Positions 7,928 through 59,202 of a stretch of DNA of 64,000 bases are shown here, in pieces. The stretch lies in assembly GCF_024345225.1 (NCBI RefSeq), contig NZ_BROD01000001.1, positions 2,304,362-2,368,361 of the forward strand. Reading direction: 5' to 3'. The translations under genes were made by a program, and so were the position numbers. The notes beneath the pieces were generated by a model, which saw only the letters and a list, made by a program, of their open reading frames with translations, did no database searches and had not been told where the DNA came from. Every line of letters starts with the position of its first letter. The stretch's first letter is position 1. The DNA comes from Clostridium sp. TW13 (GTDB lineage Bacteria; Bacillota; Clostridia; Clostridiales; Clostridiaceae).

Positions 7928-8172
7928 AACTCCGTCCTATATATAAATATAGGACGGAGATAAAATCCGCGGTACCACCTAACTTGCATTAAAATGCCTC
8001 TTTTTCAGATACTAACATATCCTATTTGTTATAACGTACAAACCACGTTCAAGCTACTCATAACTTTTCGCCTTCATTCTCAGAGGCCCATTCACTAAAA
8101 CTCCTGTGCTACCATCTCACCATCGGTAACTCTCTTGAACATTATATCTTAGATACTTCTCCTCATCATCGA
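7928..8172 (-). promoter_or_regulatory. T-box leader, tRNA-Trp specific, with terminator
   Basis: The minus strand shows the T-box sequence AGGTGGTACCGCGG (7967-7980) followed by a terminator stem CTCCGTCCTATA / TATAGGACGGAG (7930-7959) with T-run. Stem I lies at about 8080-8172. The specifier loop reads GAATGGGCCTCTGAG; the codon in register is TGG (8088-8090), i.e. tryptophan. Downstream is trpP. Confidence 0.92.
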
Positions 8173-8280
8173 TTAATTTATATTCTCTTGTTATACTTAA
8201 ACACATTATATTATGATTTTTTGTACAAGTCAATAACTTTTATAAGTAAATTTGAAATTTTCAAAATATTCCACAAAACT

Positions 8281-23345: not shown

Positions 23346-23450
23346 ATATAAATTACTATAAAGCTATGCACCCTTTAAATCTAATTCTTAATAAAAATAT
23401 AAGAATCAGGAGTTAAAACGTACTTACGTTAGCTTATAAAATATTATATA

Positions 23451-23517
23451 CTCGTAGTCAGGCGGTTTACGGCACCCTGGTAGAAACATTCGATCCATAT
23501 TATCGAACATATACGAG
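23451..23517 (-). promoter_or_regulatory. guanine-type purine riboswitch
   Basis: 67 bases closed by P1 CTCGTA/TACGAG, with the J1/2 ATATGG-type segment, J2/3 GTTTCTACC and CCGTAAA of the purine aptamer. The specificity position reads C in GACTAC, which pairs with guanine (adenine riboswitches have T). Downstream terminator and xpt confirm the role: purine excess should turn the operon off. Confidence 0.93.
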
Positions 23518-23826
23518 AATCTTATTAACTTGTCTACATTGTTTATAGATGTATAATACTTATTAAATTACTTAATTGCAATTTTAAAATACTTAAATTT
23601 TGAAACTATTTCTTTCTTTCAAACGTTTACAGCAAACATTTTTGCTTCTTTTCGTGCTTTTTAATTTTAATTGGTTTCAAATTATTACTTTTTCATAAAT
23701 TTCGACTTATTTTTATTATTTTCTTAACAATATTCTAGTTTAGTAGATACTTTGTTAAAATTTCATTCATATATTTATAAAAGAGTTGAGAGAAACTATA
23801 AGCTTCTCCCATCTAAAAAAATTGCA
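23518..23826. other. A+T-rich intergenic region
   Basis: About 310 bases between the riboswitch promoter side and the end of the TtcA-like gene. It must hold the promoter of the xpt operon on the minus strand. I see no gene and no further structured RNA. Confidence 0.5.
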
Positions 23827-48103: not shown

Positions 48104-49342
48104 TTATTCTACTCTTTGTAATTGTTTCTTTGTTATTACTGGCTTCTTACTTTTTATATCAATTATCTTAAACACTATTGCACCAAAAATTGCTGATAAA
48201 ATTGAAGCTGTTATAATGCTTATTTTAGCTGTAGATAAAGTCATATTGTCTGTAAAGGATAGAGATGTCACAAATATTGACATTGTGAAACCTATACCTC
48301 CAAGAACACTGGCACCATACAAATGCCTTTTTGTTACCTTTGCTGGCAGTCTTGCAATTTTAAGTTTCACCATTATATAGGAAGTTAAAAATATTCCTAT
48401 TTGTTTCCCTAGGAAAAGTCCACATATAATTCCTAAACTTACAGGTGAGAATAATCTACTTGAAAAACCATGAAGTTCAATGGTTATAGCTGAATTTGCA
48501 AGAGCAAATATAGGCATAATAAAATATGAAGATATTGGTGTGAGCTTATTTTCAAGATTATAAGCAATAGTAGTTTCATATTCTTCAATATTCTTGCCTA
48601 CAGGTAAAGCCATTCCTAAAAGTACTCCTGCTATGGTTGCATGTACTCCTGACTTTAAAAGACAAAACCATAATATAACTCCCAATGATATATATACTGC
48701 CGTACTTTTAACCTTTAGTCTATTGGCTAAAATAAGTAAACCAAAAATTATTCCCCCTAAAAGCAAAGCAATCCATGAAATATTGCTGTTATAAAATACT
48801 GCAACTACAATAATGGCACCAAGATCGTCAACTATAGCTAAGGCTGTAAGAAATACTACAATTCCCTTAGGTGCTTTCTTCCCTACTAAGGTAAGCACCC
48901 CCAAGGCAAAAGCTATATCTGTGGCCATTGGTATTCCCCATCCTGTAATAGTTGAATGATTATAATTAAATAGTGAATAGATTATTGCTGGTGCAATCAT
49001 TCCTCCTATAGCTGCTGAAATTGGCAGAATAGTCTTTTTGAAGGATTTCAATTCGCCTATAGCAACCTCTCTCTTGATTTCCATACCTACTACAAAGAAA
49101 AATATTGCCATCAATCCATCATTGATCCAATGAAGTACTGACATTGATATGGAAAAGTCCTTATATCCTATAGTTACTTCACTATTAAGCAGGTGATTAT
49201 AGCTTTCAGCAATTCCAGAGTTTGCAATTACTATAGCTAATATTGCACAAAGCACCAGTAGTATTCCACTGGATGATTCACTCTTAAAAAATCGTCTAAA
49301 TGGCTTTTTGATTCTGTTTTTAATACTATTTTTGTTTTTCAT
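48104..49342 (-). CDS. nhaA: Na+/H+ antiporter NhaA
   Basis: 412 residues from the ATG at 49342 (MKNKNSIKNR), with GGGAG upstream; the longer frame would begin with TTG. About 12 helices. The NhaA fold markers are present: SSGILLVLCAILAIVIANS, FFFVVGMEIKREV, TDIAFALGVL and ALAIVDDLGAIIVVA with the paired aspartates that bind Na+. Exports Na+ in exchange for protons at alkaline pH. Ends in a charged cytoplasmic tail. Confidence 0.93.
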   Translation of the reverse strand: MKNKNSIKNRIKKPFRRFFKSESSSGILLVLCAILAIVIANSGIAESYNHLLNSEVTIGYKDFSISMSVLHWINDGLMAIFFFVVGMEIKREVAIGELKSFKKTILPISAAIGGMIAPAIIYSLFNYNHSTITGWGIPMATDIAFALGVLTLVGKKAPKGIVVFLTALAIVDDLGAIIVVAVFYNSNISWIALLLGGIIFGLLILANRLKVKSTAVYISLGVILWFCLLKSGVHATIAGVLLGMALPVGKNIEEYETTIAYNLENKLTPISSYFIMPIFALANSAITIELHGFSSRLFSPVSLGIICGLFLGKQIGIFLTSYIMVKLKIARLPAKVTKRHLYGASVLGGIGFTMSIFVTSLSFTDNMTLSTAKISIITASILSAIFGAIVFKIIDIKSKKPVITKKQLQRVE

Positions 49343-49416
49343 AGTCCTATCTCCCTTCAATTATGCTTTCTATAAAAACACCCAACAAACTTTTTGACTT
49401 CCATTTCACAAATTTT

Positions 49417-49491: not shown

Positions 49492-49531
49492 TAAAAAAAG
49501 AAGTGGGAACGCTCAAAAATGAGCTTCCCAC
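49492..49531 (-). terminator. terminator or leader hairpin between ybaK and nhaA
   Basis: On the minus strand GTGGGAAGCTC pairs with GAGCGTTCCCAC (one bulge) and is followed by TTCTTTTTTT. It can end transcription from ybaK (stop 49693) or attenuate nhaA. The 160 bases between it and ybaK (49532-49692) hold nothing else I recognise. Confidence 0.75.
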
Positions 49532-49692
49532 CCCAGAAACTAATTGCTTGAAAACAAATTATAAATTTGTCCAACCGAATCTTAATTACTATTTAATTAT
49601 AAATCTATTATACCACAAAAAATAAGTTTATCAAGATTTATGTGTAAAACTTGATAAAATTCCATTAATATCTATAAATCTATACGTATCTG

Positions 49693-51452: not shown

Positions 51453-52238
51453 TTATTGTTTTACCCAATAGCTTGTGCAATCATTTGCTCTTTCAAAAAA
51501 TCCGTATTCAATTAATGCTCTTCTAAGAGTTGCATGATCCTCATAAATTCTATTTAATATCCTGTTTATCTCTTTCTCTGAATAAGTTGTGCTCTTATTG
51601 AAATTCTTCATTATTTCAGTTAAAACTATTATCTTCTTCTTTTCCTTTGAAGGATAACTTTTTAGAGAGCCATCTTCCTTCATATAATTCTTAATTACTT
51701 GTATTCTTTCCTCATCTGTAATGTTAAATCTATCATCTATGGTGGTAGCCGTTTTATGAGCATCACACAAAGTTCCCTTGTCTAGATTGCTTATCTTTTT
51801 GTTTGTGCTTTTAGATAATAAGTCCATCATGGCTAAAAATAACTTTGCCTGCTTTTCCTTTTCCCTTAACTTATATCGGTGATTTCTTACTGTAGATTGC
51901 GCCACACCTAACTTACTAGCAATGTCTTTATCTGATATTCCCTCTGCAAATAAAGAAATTAGTTGTCTTTGCACATCTGATATACCTGAAAAACTTGAAT
52001 TCATATTTAAAATATAATCTAGCATAGAGACATGTTTATCTTCAATATGAAGTTCCGCTGCTTTCTTTGCATCATATAATTCTGAATTTATATTATAAAT
52101 CCTTCCTACAGTAAAGGTTTCTCCACATATTAAGCATTTAATTTTATCTTCATTTTCAATATAACCTTTTTTTATCTCATCTACAGATGCATTCCAAAAT
52201 TCTTCATTGTTTTTCGCTTCATCTATATTCTTATCCAT
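51453..52238 (-). CDS. LuxR-type HTH regulator with DUF2087 domain
   Basis: 261 residues from the ATG at 52238 (MDKNIDEAKNN), which overlaps the stop of the gene upstream (ATGGATAA). A zinc-finger-like CLICGETF lies near residue 37, a LuxR-type helix-turn-helix near 105-140 (SDKDIASKLGVAQSTVRNHR), and a C-terminal DUF2087 region (about 195-258, YPSKEKKKIIVLTEI ... YGFFERANDCTSYW). Likely a transcription regulator; target unknown. Confidence 0.8.
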   Translation of the reverse strand: MDKNIDEAKNNEEFWNASVDEIKKGYIENEDKIKCLICGETFTVGRIYNINSELYDAKKAAELHIEDKHVSMLDYILNMNSSFSGISDVQRQLISLFAEGISDKDIASKLGVAQSTVRNHRYKLREKEKQAKLFLAMMDLLSKSTNKKISNLDKGTLCDAHKTATTIDDRFNITDEERIQVIKNYMKEDGSLKSYPSKEKKKIIVLTEIMKNFNKSTTYSEKEINRILNRIYEDHATLRRALIEYGFFERANDCTSYWVKQ

Positions 52239-52503
52239 TTTGCTTTTCTTCTTCCTTCCAATACTTCGAACCATCTCTTGTTCTACATAATAATTTATAG
52301 TCTACTAATCCTCTTCTTAATAAAAAATAATCTCCGAAACTGTGCCACTGTTCAATTATAGCATTGATTTCCTTTTCTTTGTAGTAATGATTGGTTTCAA
52401 ATTTTGTTGCTAAATACTTTAGTATTTCAAGCTTCATATCCTTTTTCATTGGCCATATTTTTATTTTTCCTTCTTCATCAAGAAATCTATTTATGTCTTG
52501 CAT
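52231..52503 (-). CDS. stand-alone DUF2087 protein
   Basis: 90 residues: IKIWPMKKDMKLEILKYL, YYKEKEINAIIEQWHSFGD, LLRRGLVDYKLLCRTRDGS; this is the DUF2087 domain also present at the C-terminus of the next gene. Overlaps that gene by 8 bases. Possibly a partner or antagonist of the regulator. Confidence 0.8.
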   Translation of the reverse strand: MQDINRFLDEEGKIKIWPMKKDMKLEILKYLATKFETNHYYKEKEINAIIEQWHSFGDYFLLRRGLVDYKLLCRTRDGSKYWKEEEKQNG

Positions 52504-52770: not shown

Positions 52771-53481
52771 TTAATTATTTACACCATCTTTAACATACTT
52801 CCATACAATCTTATCTCCAGCCTTTGGAGTGCAATCGCTAATACCATATCCAGGTTTCACCCCATTTAAGTAGTATACCCATCCACTTAAAGGTCCGTCA
52901 CCCCTTTCCTTTAAATCAAACATACTTGATACATATCCATTAACTATTCTATGTTTCTGATCTCCAATTAGTTTATTCATATAATCCTCTAAAGTTAAAG
53001 AACCATCAAAATTTACTGAAGTATTTAAAAGTATCTTCCCATCATGCACATCATCTATTATGGTAAAATACACAACTTCAGCAGGCTTCTTAGCGGCTGT
53101 ATCAGAAGATTTTGAAGCAGTGTTGGTTTGAGTCTTGTCTTCTGTTTTCACCCCTGAGCTTTTAGCAACATTATTGTTATTTGTTGCTTTTTTAGAAGTA
53201 TCTGTAGTAGTTTGTTTATCCTCTTTTTTATCCTGATTTTCCTTAGAAGCTTCTTGTTTGCTGCTGTCACTATTCTTTGAATCAGTAGCTTCTGGCTTAC
53301 CCTTTGAATCGTCTTGCTTTCCTTGAGCTGTTACTTCCTGCTTAGATTTATTATCCGCAGCAGTTGTAGAAGTAGTTGGCTCATTTAAACTATTCTTAAT
53401 TGCGTTTGAACCAAAGTATATTACTAAGCTTAGTGAAATTATACCTATTAGAAGTAGTACTATGCTCTTCTTTTTCTTCAT
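52771..53481 (-). CDS. membrane-anchored DUF4430 (transcobalamin beta-domain-like) protein
   Basis: 236 residues. One N-terminal membrane helix (about 6-26), a long Lys/Asp/Ser/Thr/Gln linker (about 30-130) typical of proteins spanning the wall, and a C-terminal DUF4430 domain (about 135-235: SLTLEDYMNKLIG, GPLSGWVYYLNGVKPGYGIS, AGDKIVWKYVKDG). DUF4430 has the fold of the beta domain of transcobalamin and intrinsic factor. The stop of the previous gene is 4 bases away. Last gene of a cobalamin-riboswitch operon, so a corrinoid-binding or hand-over role near the ECF transporter is inferred. Confidence 0.75.
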   Translation of the reverse strand: MKKKKSIVLLLIGIISLSLVIYFGSNAIKNSLNEPTTSTTAADNKSKQEVTAQGKQDDSKGKPEATDSKNSDSSKQEASKENQDKKEDKQTTTDTSKKATNNNNVAKSSGVKTEDKTQTNTASKSSDTAAKKPAEVVYFTIIDDVHDGKILLNTSVNFDGSLTLEDYMNKLIGDQKHRIVNGYVSSMFDLKERGDGPLSGWVYYLNGVKPGYGISDCTPKAGDKIVWKYVKDGVNN

Positions 53482-53484
53482 TCC

Positions 53485-55287
53485 CTACGCTCCTCTTTTT
53501 ATTTTTACACCTGCTACAATTGAACCAATTGCTAATACTAGAAGTAATGTAGTATCAACTGGAGATCCAGTCTCAGGTAACTCTGCTATTTTACTTGTAG
53601 TATTTTTGTTTGTAACTGTTGTATTTGTAGTTGCTGTTCCTTTACTATCAGTGTTTTTCACAACATAAGCTTTTAACTCTTTAGCATTTATATCTGAAGT
53701 ATAGTAGTTGTAAGTAGCACCTGACTTAAAGTTATCTAAAACTATTAATGCTCTTAAAGCTTGTTCTGTGGCATAAGCATTATTCTTTAGCGAAGCATCA
53801 TGATTGAAGGCTCCGTTATCTCCCTTATATGATAAGAAAGCTGAAACTAAATCGCCCTTGCTTTTTGCAAAAGCACCTTCTGATGGGTCAACTCCAATAG
53901 AAGTCAATGCCATTATTACAAAAGCATTAGTTTCACTTGAAGCTCCATAGGTTCCACTTATGTTTCCATCTTCTAATTGAGCTTTTGATAAAATGCTTAC
54001 AGCTTCATTTACTATTGATTTAACCTTTACATTATCTACACCTTGAAGCTTTTCTCCATTGTAATATGGTGCTAAAGCATTGATTGCTGCTGCAGTTATA
54101 TCAGGGTCAACACCTGTACCACTCCAAGACCAACCTTTCTTATAAGCTGCTAATAGCTTATTTACTAAATCTGATTTCTTTACCTTGTATTCTTCTGGTA
54201 AATTAACTGAAGAATAAGTTAATAATCCAAAGATAACATCATTATTTAAGTATTCATTTATGTCCTTGTTAAATAAAGCTTTTACAAGATTCTGTCCATT
54301 AAAATCATATGGAGAATAACCTAAGGCTGAAACTCCTACTATAGCACTTTCAAGTTCAGTTGGAGTCATATCATCCATGCCAGCTTTTAAGCTTTCATTA
54401 AGCTTATCTATAAAACCTTCATTAATCTTTGCATTGCTCTTATATAATGAAAAGGCTGCCCAATTAGAAGCTTTTCCTTTGCTTACATAAGTTAAAGTTT
54501 GTGCTAGTGTTTCTTTTATATTTTTTTGTACCTTTGTATTGTCTATTACTTTATTGTAATTTACATCACTGTACATTATGCTTGGAGCATTTACTCCATC
54601 TAAAACAAAGGTTCCCTTGTCCATTAATACTGTTGGTACATGTTTAGAATCTACATAACCACTGAATTTATAGTCATGAGTTCCTTTATCTAAGGTTAAT
54701 TTTATAGAACCATTATCATCTGTTTTATATGTTTTGCCATCTATTTCTACAGTAGCTGCCTTTATCGCCTTTACTACTTCTTTGTTTGTGTTCCAATCTA
54801 AGGATTTGTTTTGTAGAGTTATAGTAGTTTCCTCTCCAGCCTTTGGAACTGCAGGTGAAAAAGTAACATTGTTTACTATGGCTGTTTTATCAAAATCTCC
54901 ATAATAAACTACAAGTCCTTCTCCACTCTTAAGAGTTTTTGAACCTATGCCTACATCACCAGAAGCAATAGACTTACTATCCTTAACAGCATAAAGCCAT
55001 CCATCATAGCCTCCCATTGCACCTGCTTTAATTCCATTTACTTCACTTAAGTACTTTCCATATTGTCCATCTTGAACAACATAAGGAATATTCTTTTCTT
55101 TTAATAACTTTTCAAAGGCATCTAAGGCATTTGTTGAATCCTCATAACCTTCAGCTATAGTCTGTGTTAATCCTTCCACCCTAACATATACTTTTGCCGT
55201 CTCTGCCTTAGCACTAACTGGTGCTATAATCAAAGTGAAAAGCATAACTAAAGACATTATAATACTTAAACTTCTTTTCTTTTTCAT
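53485..55287 (-). CDS. LPXTG surface protein with DUF4430 and alpha/alpha-barrel domains (intrinsic-factor-like)
   Basis: 600 residues. Signal peptide (cleavage near residue 28, AKA-ETA); DUF4430 domain about 30-118 (YDGWLYAVKDSKSIASGD, GEGLVVYYGDF); Ig-like beta domain about 130-228; helical domain about 235-540 with prenyltransferase/squalene-cyclase-type repeats (GWSWSGTGVDPDITAAAINA; TNAFVIMALTSIGVDP; NNAYATEQALRALIVL); Ser/Thr linker; sortase motif LPETG at 570-574, hydrophobic segment and Lys-Arg tail. An alpha6/alpha6-barrel plus a DUF4430-like beta domain is the composition of intrinsic factor and transcobalamin, though in the reverse order here. With the operon's B12 riboswitch and ECF genes, a wall-anchored corrinoid receptor is likely. 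Terpene chemistry is ruled unlikely because the protein is exported. Confidence 0.8.
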   Translation of the reverse strand: MKKKRSLSIIMSLVMLFTLIIAPVSAKAETAKVYVRVEGLTQTIAEGYEDSTNALDAFEKLLKEKNIPYVVQDGQYGKYLSEVNGIKAGAMGGYDGWLYAVKDSKSIASGDVGIGSKTLKSGEGLVVYYGDFDKTAIVNNVTFSPAVPKAGEETTITLQNKSLDWNTNKEVVKAIKAATVEIDGKTYKTDDNGSIKLTLDKGTHDYKFSGYVDSKHVPTVLMDKGTFVLDGVNAPSIMYSDVNYNKVIDNTKVQKNIKETLAQTLTYVSKGKASNWAAFSLYKSNAKINEGFIDKLNESLKAGMDDMTPTELESAIVGVSALGYSPYDFNGQNLVKALFNKDINEYLNNDVIFGLLTYSSVNLPEEYKVKKSDLVNKLLAAYKKGWSWSGTGVDPDITAAAINALAPYYNGEKLQGVDNVKVKSIVNEAVSILSKAQLEDGNISGTYGASSETNAFVIMALTSIGVDPSEGAFAKSKGDLVSAFLSYKGDNGAFNHDASLKNNAYATEQALRALIVLDNFKSGATYNYYTSDINAKELKAYVVKNTDSKGTATTNTTVTNKNTTSKIAELPETGSPVDTTLLLVLAIGSIVAGVKIKRGA

Positions 55288-55304
55288 TCATCTTCCTCCT
55301 GATA

Positions 55305-55988
55305 TTATTTTTCTATATAATTTACTCTATGGTAAAACCTTAGCAAAATCTTGTAGAATCCTTCATAGAAGAATAATACAAATAAAAAGTTTCCTATGGC
55401 ATGTGCCAAGTCAAAAGGCACCGCATTAATGTAGGTTAATAAGACAGACTTAATGTTTATAACCTTAACAAAGCCAAGAACACACCATAAATTCATGATG
55501 AATCCAAAAACAAAGCCATAGGCAAAGCAAATAATTGCAAACACCTGAATAGATGGCTTTCTGCCCTTATAACCTAGAATTCCACTTAAAGCTCCAACCA
55601 CTCCCCAAGCTAACATCTGCCAAGGAGTCCAAGGCCCCTGCCCTAAAAATATATTAGATACAAAGGCAGCCGTAGCCCCTATTATAAAACCATTGTAACT
55701 TCCAAATACCAAACCTGATAAAGCTACAATAAAGGTTACTGGCTGAACATTTGGTATCACAACAAAGGGCACTCTGCTTATAGCTGCAAAAGAACTTAAG
55801 GTAGCAATAATTGCTATATCCTTTACCCCTTTGCTGCTCTTCTCAAAGTAAAAATAACTCATAAAAATTATATATAAAACAGACACTGTAAGAAGTGCTC
55901 CATAGTATGGCTTTGTATTTAAGCTTTTTGAAAAGACTATAAGGAGCATAAGAGGTAATATGGTTAAAATTGTTATAATCTTTTTCAT
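55305..55988 (-). CDS. ECF transporter S component, probably for cobalamin
   Basis: 227 residues from the ATG at 55988 (MKKIITILTIL), whose ATG overlaps the TGA of the ATPase gene; AAAGG lies 11 bases upstream. About seven hydrophobic segments, the usual S-component size, with SFAAISRVPFVVIPNVQP, VFGSYNGFIIGATAAFVSNI and GQGPWTPWQMLAWG, resembling the CbrT-like cobalamin S proteins. S components bind the vitamin; the riboswitch upstream points to a corrinoid. Encoded directly after its own T and A components, so this is a dedicated (group I-like) ECF system. Confidence 0.85.
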   Translation of the reverse strand: MKKIITILTILPLMLLIVFSKSLNTKPYYGALLTVSVLYIIFMSYFYFEKSSKGVKDIAIIATLSSFAAISRVPFVVIPNVQPVTFIVALSGLVFGSYNGFIIGATAAFVSNIFLGQGPWTPWQMLAWGVVGALSGILGYKGRKPSIQVFAIICFAYGFVFGFIMNLWCVLGFVKVINIKSVLLTYINAVPFDLAHAIGNFLFVLFFYEGFYKILLRFYHRVNYIEK

Positions 55989-57637
55989 CTTTTTAACCAT
56001 CCTTTCAGCTCATCAATTGTATAAATTTCTTTATAATCTACCAGCTTATGAACTGTAGAAGTATAGTAAATTCCTTCCTTCAGCACACTAGCCTTAGGCC
56101 CTTTTTGAATTACCTCACCATTTAATAATAAAATCAAATCATCACTATATTCAGCGGCAAAATCCACATCATGAGTAATCATAATTACCATCTTCCCTAA
56201 ATCAACAAAGCTTCTTAATATCTCTCCAAGCTCTTCTTTGTTATGATAATCTAAACCTCTGGTAGGTTCATCAAGGAGTAAAATCTCTGGTTGCATCACA
56301 AGCACTGTGGCTATGGCAAGTCTTTGCTTTTCTCCTCCACTTAAATCTCTAGGGTTTTTATCCTTTAAGTGAAGCAGGTTCAAGCTTTCTAATACTGAAT
56401 CTATTCGGTTATATTCAGTTATATTAAAGTTATCAAGAGTAAATTTCACCTCTTCATAAACAGTATCCTTTGAAATATAATCATTAGGATTTTGAGAAAC
56501 ATATCCCACTGTTTTTGCAATTTCACTTACATTTAAAGCTTCAGTACTTTTACCTGATATTTTTATATTTCCCTTATAAGCTACTAGCTTCATTATGCTT
56601 TTAAGCAAGGTACTCTTCCCTGCACCATTCTCTCCAAGAATTGTATAAAGCTTACCTTTATCAAATCTTAAGCTTACATTTCCTAAGGCTACATGATTTT
56701 CGTACATTACAGATATATTTTCTATCTCTAAATAGCTTTCTTGTCTTTCTTTTCTCTCCATGAAGGATTTAATTTTTGAGAGCATACCTTCTTTTTCTTC
56801 TGCTTTGTTATTTATCTCTAATTCCTTTGGCAGGTAATCCCCTAGAGCCTTTCTTGCTTGTCTAAAATCATTTATATCTGATAACTTAAGCTCTTTTGCT
56901 ATTCTTAAGTACTGAGGCAAAAATTCATAAATATCTTGTTTATATAAATCCCTTTTTGTTCCCTTAAACTCAAGCTTTCCTTGGTCTAAAATTGCTATTT
57001 CATCTGCTATATCAAACCACTTGTCTACTCTCTGCTCTACTACTATAATGGTTTTACCCATTTCTAGATTTATCTTTTTCACTAAATATACAAGCTCCTC
57101 TGCACTTTGAGGATCTAATTGTGAGGTTGGCTCATCAAGAATTATGGTATTTGTATTCATGCACAAAGCTGAAGCCAAAGCCACCTTTTGCTTTTCCCCA
57201 CCAGATAGTTCTTGTACTTTTTTGTAAGCTAAAGGTAGTAAATTTAGAAACTGCAGTGCTTCAAAAACTCTTCTCTTGATACTTCCTTCTTCTACTCCTA
57301 TGTTTTCAAGAGAAAATGCCACTTCTCTATGCACCACATCCATTACAAGTTGTCTCTCTGGATCTTGAAAAACCATGGATATTTCCTTTGCTCTTTCTCT
57401 ATGCTCCATATTTTTTAGAGGCTTTCCATTGTAGCTTACGTTTCCTTCAATTACCCCGCCATAAAAGTTAGGTATAGAACCAGACAGACATTTCACCAAA
57501 GTAGACTTTCCTGAACCTGATATCCCTAATACTAATAAAATTTCGCCCTTATTAATTGATAAATCTATGTTCTCAAGAGACTTCTTTGTTTCGTTTCCAT
57601 AGCTATAACTAAGTTTATTTATTTCTATATAATTCAT
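55985..57637 (-). CDS. ECF transporter, fused double ATPase (EcfA-EcfA')
   Basis: 550 residues with two complete ABC domains. First: GISGSGKST, VQELSGGEKQK, TIILDEPTSQLDP. Second: GENGAGKST (about residue 335), RDLSGGEKQR, ILLLDEPTRGLD. The two halves are joined by a charged linker (about 270-300). In most ECF systems these are separate proteins, but fused forms are common in clostridia. Overlaps the end of EcfT by 23 bases and the start of the S gene by 4. Confidence 0.9.
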   Translation of the reverse strand: MNYIEINKLSYSYGNETKKSLENIDLSINKGEILLVLGISGSGKSTLVKCLSGSIPNFYGGVIEGNVSYNGKPLKNMEHRERAKEISMVFQDPERQLVMDVVHREVAFSLENIGVEEGSIKRRVFEALQFLNLLPLAYKKVQELSGGEKQKVALASALCMNTNTIILDEPTSQLDPQSAEELVYLVKKINLEMGKTIIVVEQRVDKWFDIADEIAILDQGKLEFKGTKRDLYKQDIYEFLPQYLRIAKELKLSDINDFRQARKALGDYLPKELEINNKAEEKEGMLSKIKSFMERKERQESYLEIENISVMYENHVALGNVSLRFDKGKLYTILGENGAGKSTLLKSIMKLVAYKGNIKISGKSTEALNVSEIAKTVGYVSQNPNDYISKDTVYEEVKFTLDNFNITEYNRIDSVLESLNLLHLKDKNPRDLSGGEKQRLAIATVLVMQPEILLLDEPTRGLDYHNKEELGEILRSFVDLGKMVIMITHDVDFAAEYSDDLILLLNGEVIQKGPKASVLKEGIYYTSTVHKLVDYKEIYTIDELKGWLKR

Positions 57638-58502
57638 TTTCCGCTATCCTTCTCCTTTGAACATAATCTTGAATAAAAAATACTACGGTACTAATAATTA
57701 AAATACTTTGAAGTATTGAATATATATTTATAAATATTAACAATTCACTGCCATCGTAAACATCAAAGGCAATCTTATTGCTTAAGGTAAATAATATATG
57801 CAACAACAATAAAACTAAAAAATATGCACTTACTAAAAAATCTTTAAATTTCAGCTTACTTTTTTCATATTCACTTCTCTTACCACTAAGAAAACCTCTT
57901 ACATAAGCACTTTCTCCAATATCAAAGGCACCTTCTAAGGAATCCTCTAAAAGTACAGATAATACCGGTATATTTGCCTTTATCCTATCTTTTTTTGAGG
58001 TAGCTTCTAGATTTACACCTCTTGTCAAGTAAACCTCTTTTAAGGTATTTATCCTTTTTGTCATGTTAGGAACAAGCTTTAAGGATAGCAAGATTATCAA
58101 GGTTACCTTTGGACTTTTCTTGCTAAAGTAGGATAAGGCTTTGTCACTATCCAGCATGTTTCCAAGCACATAAAACAAATATACAATGACCAGAATCTTA
58201 ACACTCATAAACACCGCATATATTAAAGTCTCCACTGTAATCTGTTTTCCCAAAACAGTTGTTATAACCCTTGAACCCGCATTTACAAATATAATATTGA
58301 TAATTGTAGTTATTATGGCTAGAGGAAAAAATATCTTAATTCCAAGACTTAACCTCTTTGCATCTTTATATATAATTAAAGCTATCATTGAACATACTAA
58401 AAGTGAGATTATTATCAATGGATTGTCTGTAGAAAATGTAATTATCATCAACACTAAATTAATAATTATCACTGTTAACATATGAAAGTTATTTATTTTC
58501 AA
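57615..58502 (-). CDS. ECF transporter transmembrane component EcfT
   Basis: 295 residues from a TTG at 58502 (LKINNFHML), preferred because GAGGAGG lies 6 bases upstream; the frame continues to 58541. About six hydrophobic segments. EcfT signatures are the cytoplasmic coupling helices with LTRGVNLEA near the middle and the family's Ala-Arg-Gly-type second motif (ESAYVRGF). It links the ATPase to the S component. First gene of the cobalamin-riboswitch operon. Confidence 0.85.
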   Translation of the reverse strand: MKINNFHMLTVIIINLVLMIITFSTDNPLIIISLLVCSMIALIIYKDAKRLSLGIKIFFPLAIITTIINIIFVNAGSRVITTVLGKQITVETLIYAVFMSVKILVIVYLFYVLGNMLDSDKALSYFSKKSPKVTLIILLSLKLVPNMTKRINTLKEVYLTRGVNLEATSKKDRIKANIPVLSVLLEDSLEGAFDIGESAYVRGFLSGKRSEYEKSKLKFKDFLVSAYFLVLLLLHILFTLSNKIAFDVYDGSELLIFINIYSILQSILIISTVVFFIQDYVQRRRIAENELYRNK

Positions 58503-58559
58503 AGACTTTCCTCCTCTATTTTGATTAAAAACTTTTTGCACAAAATCTTATTTGTCAGA

Positions 58560-58725
58560 TTATATTTAGAACTATCTATAAGTCATAAATTCTATTTGTC
58601 TCAAACAAGGACAAAAGTGTCTGTGGGCACGCTCCCTTCGAGATACTAAACTTCAAGTTTGAAACTCTGAAACTCTGATTATATCACCCTTGTATGAGTA
58701 CAAAATTTTATAGTTTCCTATACAA
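58560..58725 (-). other. leader segment between terminator and EcfT, unexplained
   Basis: On the minus strand this 165-base part of the leader includes a G+C-richer piece (AGGGAGCGTGCCCACAGACA) and direct repeats of AGAGTTTC, flanked by AAACTTGAAGTTT. It has no open frame. It follows the riboswitch terminator, so it is only transcribed on read-through. I do not recognise it. Confidence 0.3.
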
Positions 58726-58756
58726 TAAAAAAGTAGCTACCTGTTGGTAACTACTT
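58726..58756 (-). terminator. terminator of the cobalamin riboswitch
   Basis: AAAGTAGTTACC pairs with GGTAGCTACTTT (loop AACA, one G-U) and is followed by TTTATT on the minus strand. It lies between the aptamer and the first operon gene. Confidence 0.85.
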
Positions 58757-58782
58757 TGATTTAAAGCATAAGAACTTAAACT

Positions 58783-58866
58783 TAGGTATCTGAAAATAAA
58801 TAAAAAAGCCAATTATGCGACGGAAAATAGACTAGCATAGGTCTTATTTATTTTTTGAAGATGCCT
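58783..58866. repeat. palindromic dispersed repeat, family 1, copy 7
   Basis: AGGTATCTGAAAATAAATAA ... AATAGACTAGCATAGG ... TTATTTATTTTTTGAAGATG then CCT: the best-preserved copy. It lies between the cobalamin aptamer and the terminator, so it is transcribed as part of the leader. Confidence 0.75.
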
Positions 58867-58911
58867 TACTACATTTTAGCAATAAGTTCAATTTTAAATG
58901 CTCAAAATCAT

Positions 58912-59085
58912 TTCTTCCCTCCGAAGATAGATCCAAGACGAACTATTACAAGATATCCTGACTTATACTTCTTCCTCATGATAGCCTTCCCCAATTAAGA
59001 GTGGCATTTTTATCAATCGTCCGTATTTACAGTAGCGGGGGCTGTTATGGCCTTTAACCATATTCCCTCATAATAGCTCCTATTA
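58912..59085 (-). promoter_or_regulatory. cobalamin riboswitch
   Basis: The minus strand carries AGGGAATATGGTTAAAGGCC, AGCCCCCGCTACTGT (at 59029-59042), ATGCCACTC, GGGGAAGGC and the B12 box AAGTCAGGATATCTTGT (58948-58964), in the order of the AdoCbl-type riboswitch. It is followed by a terminator and the EcfT gene, so the operon should be shut off when cobalamin is sufficient. Confidence 0.93.
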
Positions 59086-59202
59086 AATTTTATTTCTCTA
59101 AATATACATAATAATGTTATAACAAATTTAATTGTATAAAGCAATAAAATATTTTTCATAAAATTTTGTAAAATTAAATTTAAATTTAAAAATATAAAAA
59201 TT

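Follow-up and report, generated by a model that had tools for sequence, protein, structure and literature searches.

Burroughs, Balaji, Iyer and Aravind defined a transcobalamin-like clade of soluble-ligand-binding beta-grasp (SLBB) domains in 2007 and predicted a role in B12 scavenging. They described toroid fusions with either domain leading, anchors of the Gram-positive type, and operons that encode a further SLBB protein next to CbiO and CbiQ; they also proposed that the toroid-SLBB fusion was transferred to animals (PMC1796856). The S component CbrT of energy-coupling factor (ECF) transporters was predicted in 2009 and proven to be a B12 S component in 2018, and ECF-CbrT of Lactobacillus delbrueckii imports both cobalamin and cobinamide (PMC5997447). 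Here we describe an operon of Clostridium sp. TW13 that contains elements of both systems. The window, which is the whole stretch of DNA that was analysed, comprises 64,000 nucleotides (contig NZ_BROD01000001.1, positions 2,304,362 to 2,368,361), and its minus strand between 52771 and 59106 holds the operon as a single transcription unit consisting of a cobalamin riboswitch, a terminator and five genes. With good confidence we interpret this operon as a vitamin B12 (corrinoid) scavenging system composed of a wall-anchored trap, a membrane-proximal second binder and an ECF-CbrT importer; capture and import of B12 are very probably its function.

Nothing essential distinguishes the operon from the systems described in 2007 (PMC1796856), and it is a well-supported member of the kind predicted then, not a new kind. 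Our analysis adds the assignment of the S component to CbrT, the leader with its riboswitch and terminator, a beta linker domain and the structural comparison. The S component comes from the same family as that of L. delbrueckii ECF-CbrT (PDB 6fnp; PMC5997447). However, in L. delbrueckii CbrT is one of several S components served by a single ECF module and its gene lies in nrdJ-cbrS-cbrT-pduO, whereas the operon described here has a dedicated module in which EcfA and EcfA' are fused and to which surface binders are attached.

Results

Organization and conservation of the operon

The five genes encode EcfT, a fused double EcfA, an S component, a protein with an LPETG motif and a DUF4430 protein (SLBB2 protein), and they overlap one another or are separated by no more than about 20 bases. 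Every part named in the initial annotation was found, contiguous and on the minus strand. EcfT, two EcfA domains and an S component are thus encoded together, as in an ECF transporter. Judged from the sequence, the true start of EcfT is likelier to be the TTG at about position 58502, which lies behind GAGGAGG.

Relatives of the LPETG protein were found in 67 of 207 genomes of the family, and in 29 besides the window they extended over nearly the full length. The order EcfT, EcfAA', S component, LPETG-type protein and SLBB2 protein was kept in 27 of the 29 homologous loci; of the two exceptions, L052 stops at a contig end and L054 holds the surface pair only. The initial annotation had named a lack of B12 riboswitches in homologous operons as an observation that would count against it. 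We found a cobalamin riboswitch ahead of 26 of the 28 evaluable loci, 25 at the Rfam threshold and one just under it (L036; RF01482, 49.4 bits against a cut-off of 50). Because both the gene order and the riboswitch are kept to this extent, the linkage between the surface proteins and the importer is above chance. In L054 (4769-7386, minus strand), a cobalamin riboswitch of their own precedes the genes for a toroid/SLBB protein and an SLBB2 protein, which have no ECF genes beside them; the S component is encoded on another contig. Going beyond co-location, we regard this arrangement as the strongest single pointer to a role of the surface proteins.

A relative of the S component was present in all 40 checked genomes that carry a relative of the LPETG protein or toroid. 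In the reverse test, SLBB genes were nearby in 75 and toroid genes in 67 of 80 S-component loci from named genomes, a sample that leans towards barrel operons because the query was taken from them. The four loci with neither gene type were near contig ends, and Pfam confirmed a sample of the SLBB and toroid calls. These 80 loci span Clostridia, Bacilli, Paenibacillus, Moorella, Desulfotomaculum, Syntrophomonas and lactobacilli. The 28-sequence alignment of the LPETG protein was too variable for scanning, whereas the S-component alignment was usable; a scan of the genome contigs with the single LPETG protein sequence gave no confirmed relative.

The type of anchoring varies while the position is kept: the toroid protein carries LPxTG or S-layer homology (SLH) domains, and the SLBB2 protein is held by an N-terminal helix, which in several bacilli is replaced by what looks like a lipobox. 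In a Syntrophomonas bin, for example, a toroid protein in the equivalent place has SLH domains replacing LPxTG (L106, 4865-6397). Very large toroid proteins of up to about 2,150 residues occur near CbrT-type ECF genes in L065 (4576-9785), L068, L070, L071 and L103, and in L065 a cobalamin riboswitch lies directly ahead of a toroid protein of 1,609 residues. Clusters of Clostridium muellerianum, Clostridium drakei and Clostridium carboxidivorans (L082, L083 and L086) contain two CbrT-like S components, each followed by SLBB genes, which possibly reflects two corrinoid specificities on one ECF module. The NCBIfam model 'SCO2321 family membrane protein' gave sub-threshold matches to the toroids of L106 and of the window, which suggests a streptomycete counterpart of the B12 system.

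The leader region

The riboswitch has the conserved core and helices of RF00174 with a score above the gathering threshold, and it is the sole match to this family in the 4.64-Mb genome. In an alignment of 21 leaders, changes on both sides were observed in 27 of 38 pairs, and 95% of the cells were paired. None of 500 shuffles, which ignore relatedness, was as high, and slid controls paired in only 36-46%. Terminators comparable to that of the operon were found in 20 of 21 homologous leaders, with 0.54 expected from dinucleotide shuffles. Since the terminator sits behind the riboswitch in the leader, B12 would be expected to switch expression off.

The S component

Kinship of the S component with another vitamin family was a second observation that, according to the initial annotation, would speak against B12 import. 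A search of all PDB sequences with the single protein matched only 6fnp (ECF-CbrT, E 1.3e-12), and a profile of 24 relatives matched 6fnp_A with E 5e-22, the next S component being 4hzu_S at E 0.09. The protein is thus closer in sequence to the characterised CbrT than to other S components, and on this comparison we place it with CbrT and not with another vitamin family. On this kinship, transport of cobalamin or cobinamide by the ECF complex of the operon is predicted.

We also considered whether the S component might carry another vitamin, such as folate or riboflavin, or haem. Its domain labels are weak and point that way (Pfam ECF-ribofla_trS, 38.7 bits; NCBIfam FolT, 27.2 bits against a cut-off of 60), and a haem ECF system has been reported from Staphylococcus lugdunensis (PMC7299338). 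However, CbrT was the only clear match among the S components in the PDB, and the cobalamin riboswitch is kept ahead of nearly all of the evaluable operons. Transport of a different vitamin or of haem is therefore highly improbable.

The surface proteins

Support for SLBB folds came from Pfam and from structure. We based the assignment on these because the full-length SLBB2 profile matched mainly low-complexity stalks in the PDB. The models give strands, a helix, a hairpin and strands, that is, a beta-grasp core with a beta-hairpin inserted after the helix. The solved structures nearest to the SLBB2 domain according to VIA were 4kki (Z 13.2), 3kq4 (13.0) and 2bb6 (12.7). Haptocorrin, intrinsic factor, transcobalamin and an SLBB protein of Ruminococcus gnavus together spanned Z 11.4-13.2, and the next family reached 7.5. 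The R. gnavus protein (RUMGNA_00854, PDB 3u7z, Z 12.5) is a solved bacterial single SLBB domain that was deposited as a putative metal-binding protein without an assigned ligand. A conserved aromatic residue in the hairpin before strand 3 is characteristic of the transcobalamin-like clade, and in the SLBB2 domain this residue, Tyr183, was invariant (24/24). According to the 2007 study, the residue at this position in transcobalamin stacks on the base of cobalamin (PMC1796856). From these folds, binding of B12 by the SLBB domains is predicted.

The LPETG protein was modelled with AlphaFold2 at a predicted local distance difference test (pLDDT) score of 92 and a predicted template modelling score of 0.82. 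The model consists of a first SLBB domain (SLBB1), a beta domain and a twelve-helix toroid. The initial annotation had described this protein as DUF4430 plus a barrel; both were found, but the extra beta domain at about residues 132-232, which has no Pfam match, had been missed. The Pfam score of SLBB1 was weak (21.6 bits against a cut-off of 23.8), and a second search gave 25.3 bits, above the cut-off. Foldseek with the whole model returned as its top match 5no0, a transcobalamin beta domain (E 5.2e-5), with transcobalamins also at the top. By sequence, a phmmer search of the PDB with the LPETG protein gave no match and the family profile gave only weak squalene-cyclase matches. As all Pfam toroid models miss the protein, the toroid assignment rests on the predicted structure; its Z score was 17.8 to both intrinsic factor (3kq4) and haptocorrin (4kki), with the animal B12 carriers spanning 17.0-17.8. 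The protein has the features of a sortase substrate, namely a signal peptide, LPxTG, a transmembrane segment and a basic tail, and the genome has one sortase gene (120.9 bits); Pfam Gram_pos_anchor reached only 10.4 bits.

The LPETG protein thus combines an alpha6/alpha6 toroid and an SLBB domain in one exported chain, and with the SLBB2 protein it shares with intrinsic factor, haptocorrin and transcobalamin both this toroid and the beta-grasp domain with its hairpin before strand 3. Unlike these soluble, secreted carriers it has a wall anchor, an extra beta domain between the two others and a low identity to them (13-20%), and its order is SLBB then toroid, not toroid first and SLBB last. On the basis of its model it would work like intrinsic factor, although we do not file it as such. 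The reversed order had been taken in the initial annotation to suggest independent assembly. This proposal finds no support and we do not prefer it, as the bacterial relatives in the operon family include 64 proteins with DUF4430 first and 13 with the toroid first, so that domain shuffling within bacteria explains the order.

B12 requirement of the genome

The genome has exactly two DUF4430 genes, both in the operon and hence under its only cobalamin riboswitch. Two proteins with B12-binding domains were found, a MetH-type methionine synthase and a B12 radical-SAM protein, and CbiC was not found in the genome. The cell probably cannot make corrin rings. This pattern fits a B12 auxotroph that may rely on the importer of the operon.

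Evidence weighing against B12 capture, and alternatives

Several observations count against our interpretation. Two loci, L056 and L057, are without a riboswitch. Of the 30 genomes that carry the operon, 15 have CbiC, so auxotrophy does not hold for carriers in general. The hairpin aromatic of SLBB1 is Tyr or Phe in 24 of 28 sequences, which makes it common and not invariant. Lastly, terpene cyclases (VIA, Z 20.6) and sugar epimerases were the best matches to the toroid fold and scored above intrinsic factor, and because of this ranking the modelled toroid fold alone does not argue for B12.

Two of these points bear on the possibility that corrinoids are imported but that the surface proteins bind mainly precursors or other cobamides, such as cobinamide or pseudo-B12, and not cobalamin. 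In SLBB1, the aromatic residue expected to stack on the lower base is not strictly conserved, and the half of the carriers with CbiC may salvage precursors; moreover, L. delbrueckii CbrT carries cobalamin and cobinamide alike (PMC5997447). Against this, the hairpin Tyr of SLBB2 is invariant and the riboswitch family senses cobalamins, and we consider a preference for precursors or other cobamides unlikely, if not very much so.

The toroid raises two further alternatives. Glycan-acting proteins often contain alpha/alpha toroids (the structural matches included epimerases and one GH105 protein, Z 17.7-19.5), and together with the wall anchoring and the added beta domain this would suit adhesins or glycan-binding proteins that share only regulation with the importer. 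However, the three animal B12 carriers were the first matches of SLBB2, 4-5 Z units above other beta-grasp proteins, the linkage to CbrT operons is kept in Clostridia, Bacilli, Moorella and Desulfotomaculum, and in L054 the surface pair stands alone under a B12 riboswitch; an adhesin or glycan-binding role is very unlikely. Instead, the toroid could be an enzyme of the kind that automatic annotation may propose, a terpene cyclase or a prenyltransferase. Its top structural matches were drimenyl diphosphate synthase and a squalene-hopene cyclase (Z about 20), and profile matches to squalene cyclases were weak. The protein is nevertheless exported and wall-anchored, away from prenyl diphosphates, and its toroid is fused to SLBB within a B12 operon. 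The conserved toroid motif is D-x-D-x-T with a hydrophobic fourth residue and not DxDD, the motif of class II cyclases. We regard an enzymatic toroid as scarcely credible, and B12 scavenging remains our preferred interpretation of the operon.

Table 1. Features of the operon in the window. TM, transmembrane segment.
Feature	Position	Strand	Evidence
Cobalamin (B12) riboswitch aptamer	58933..59106	-	RF00174, 74 bits vs gathering score 31.5, E 2.2e-16
Intrinsic terminator of the riboswitch leader	58730..58757	-	12-pair stem and T-rich tail; 1 found vs 0.3 expected
EcfT (CbiQ-like) coupling membrane protein	57615..58541	-	CbiQ 20.9 bits, below cut-off 25; homologues at same place in 27 loci
Fused EcfA-EcfA' ATPase	55985..57637	-	TIGR04520 372 bits and TIGR04521 357 bits, two stretches, both above cut-off
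CbrT-like S component	55305..56000	-	phmmer to 6fnp_A (ECF-CbrT), E 1.3e-12
Wall-anchored transcobalamin-like protein, 600 residues	53485..55287	-	Signal peptide, DUF4430/SLBB, beta linker, alpha6/alpha6 toroid, LPETG
First SLBB/DUF4430 beta-grasp domain (SLBB1), residues about 32-131	54895..55194	-	PF14478
All-beta linker domain, residues about 132-232	54592..54894	-	Strand pattern in AlphaFold2 model
Alpha6/alpha6 toroid, residues about 254-534	53686..54528	-	12 helices, pLDDT mostly > 90 (model)
LPETG sortase motif, residues 570-574, then TM and basic tail	53566..53580	-	Sequence
Membrane-tethered SLBB2 protein, 236 residues	52771..53481	-	PF14478 44.3 bits; N-terminal TM, long low-complexity stalk, C-terminal DUF4430
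SLBB2 domain, residues 136-236	52774..53076	-	Model pLDDT 92.4

Other features of the window

About 270 bases beyond the operon end are two adjoining DUF2087 genes (51453-52503, minus strand), one of which also has a LuxR-type helix-turn-helix; they are probably unrelated to the operon. A Na+ riboswitch (RF03071, 62.8 bits; 49522-49576, minus strand) lies just upstream of an open reading frame (48104-49360, minus strand) that we take, from its family as recognised by eye, to be an NhaA-type Na+/H+ antiporter. An FMN riboswitch (823-972), a T-box leader (7947-8178) and a purine riboswitch (23435-23536), all on the minus strand, scored above the Rfam thresholds.

Discussion

In the mechanism that we propose, the riboswitch would let transcription pass the terminator when B12 is low. 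The cell would then make the dedicated ECF transporter (EcfT, fused EcfA-EcfA' and the CbrT-like S component) and the two exported proteins. The LPETG protein would be linked to the wall by sortase, and the models suggest that its SLBB beta-grasp domain and alpha6/alpha6 toroid could together clasp a corrinoid, as in transcobalamin and intrinsic factor. Position and conservation suggest that the SLBB2 protein, held at the membrane by its N-terminal helix and a flexible stalk, would receive the ligand and deliver it to CbrT, which would import it at the expense of ATP, as is known for ECF-CbrT of L. delbrueckii. The imported B12 would serve MetH and the B12 radical-SAM enzyme. We give even chances to the full form of this proposal, a two-step extracellular relay in which an SLBB-toroid clamp passes B12 to an SLBB protein docking on CbrT, an ECF transporter is fed by dedicated binders, and the proteins represent the bacterial stock of animal intrinsic factor and transcobalamin.

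Wall-anchored corrinoid capture feeding a CbrT-like ECF importer, as put forward in the initial annotation, passed every computational test that was run, with corrinoid binding by the surface proteins and the hand-off between them predicted from folds and position. The initial annotation expected public gene labels to hide the function; the literature, however, was not blind to it, as B12 scavenging had been predicted for the exact architecture and operon (PMC1796856). Our literature search found no experimental study of DUF4430/SLBB with the riboswitch, CbrT or transcobalamin in Firmicutes, and no paper joining CbrT, the riboswitch and SLBB proteins or testing the surface proteins, subscription journals being largely outside its coverage.

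The compact operon and clear folds make this locus a ready test case for the 2007 prediction. In the usual description, ECF transporters do without a soluble binding protein. If our reading of the binders is right, such transporters can be fed by dedicated extracellular carriers, and bacteria living today have counterparts of the human B12 carriers within their B12 operons. If true, this would also show by what means Gram-positive bacteria compete for B12, a counterpart to the surface B12 binders of Bacteroides.

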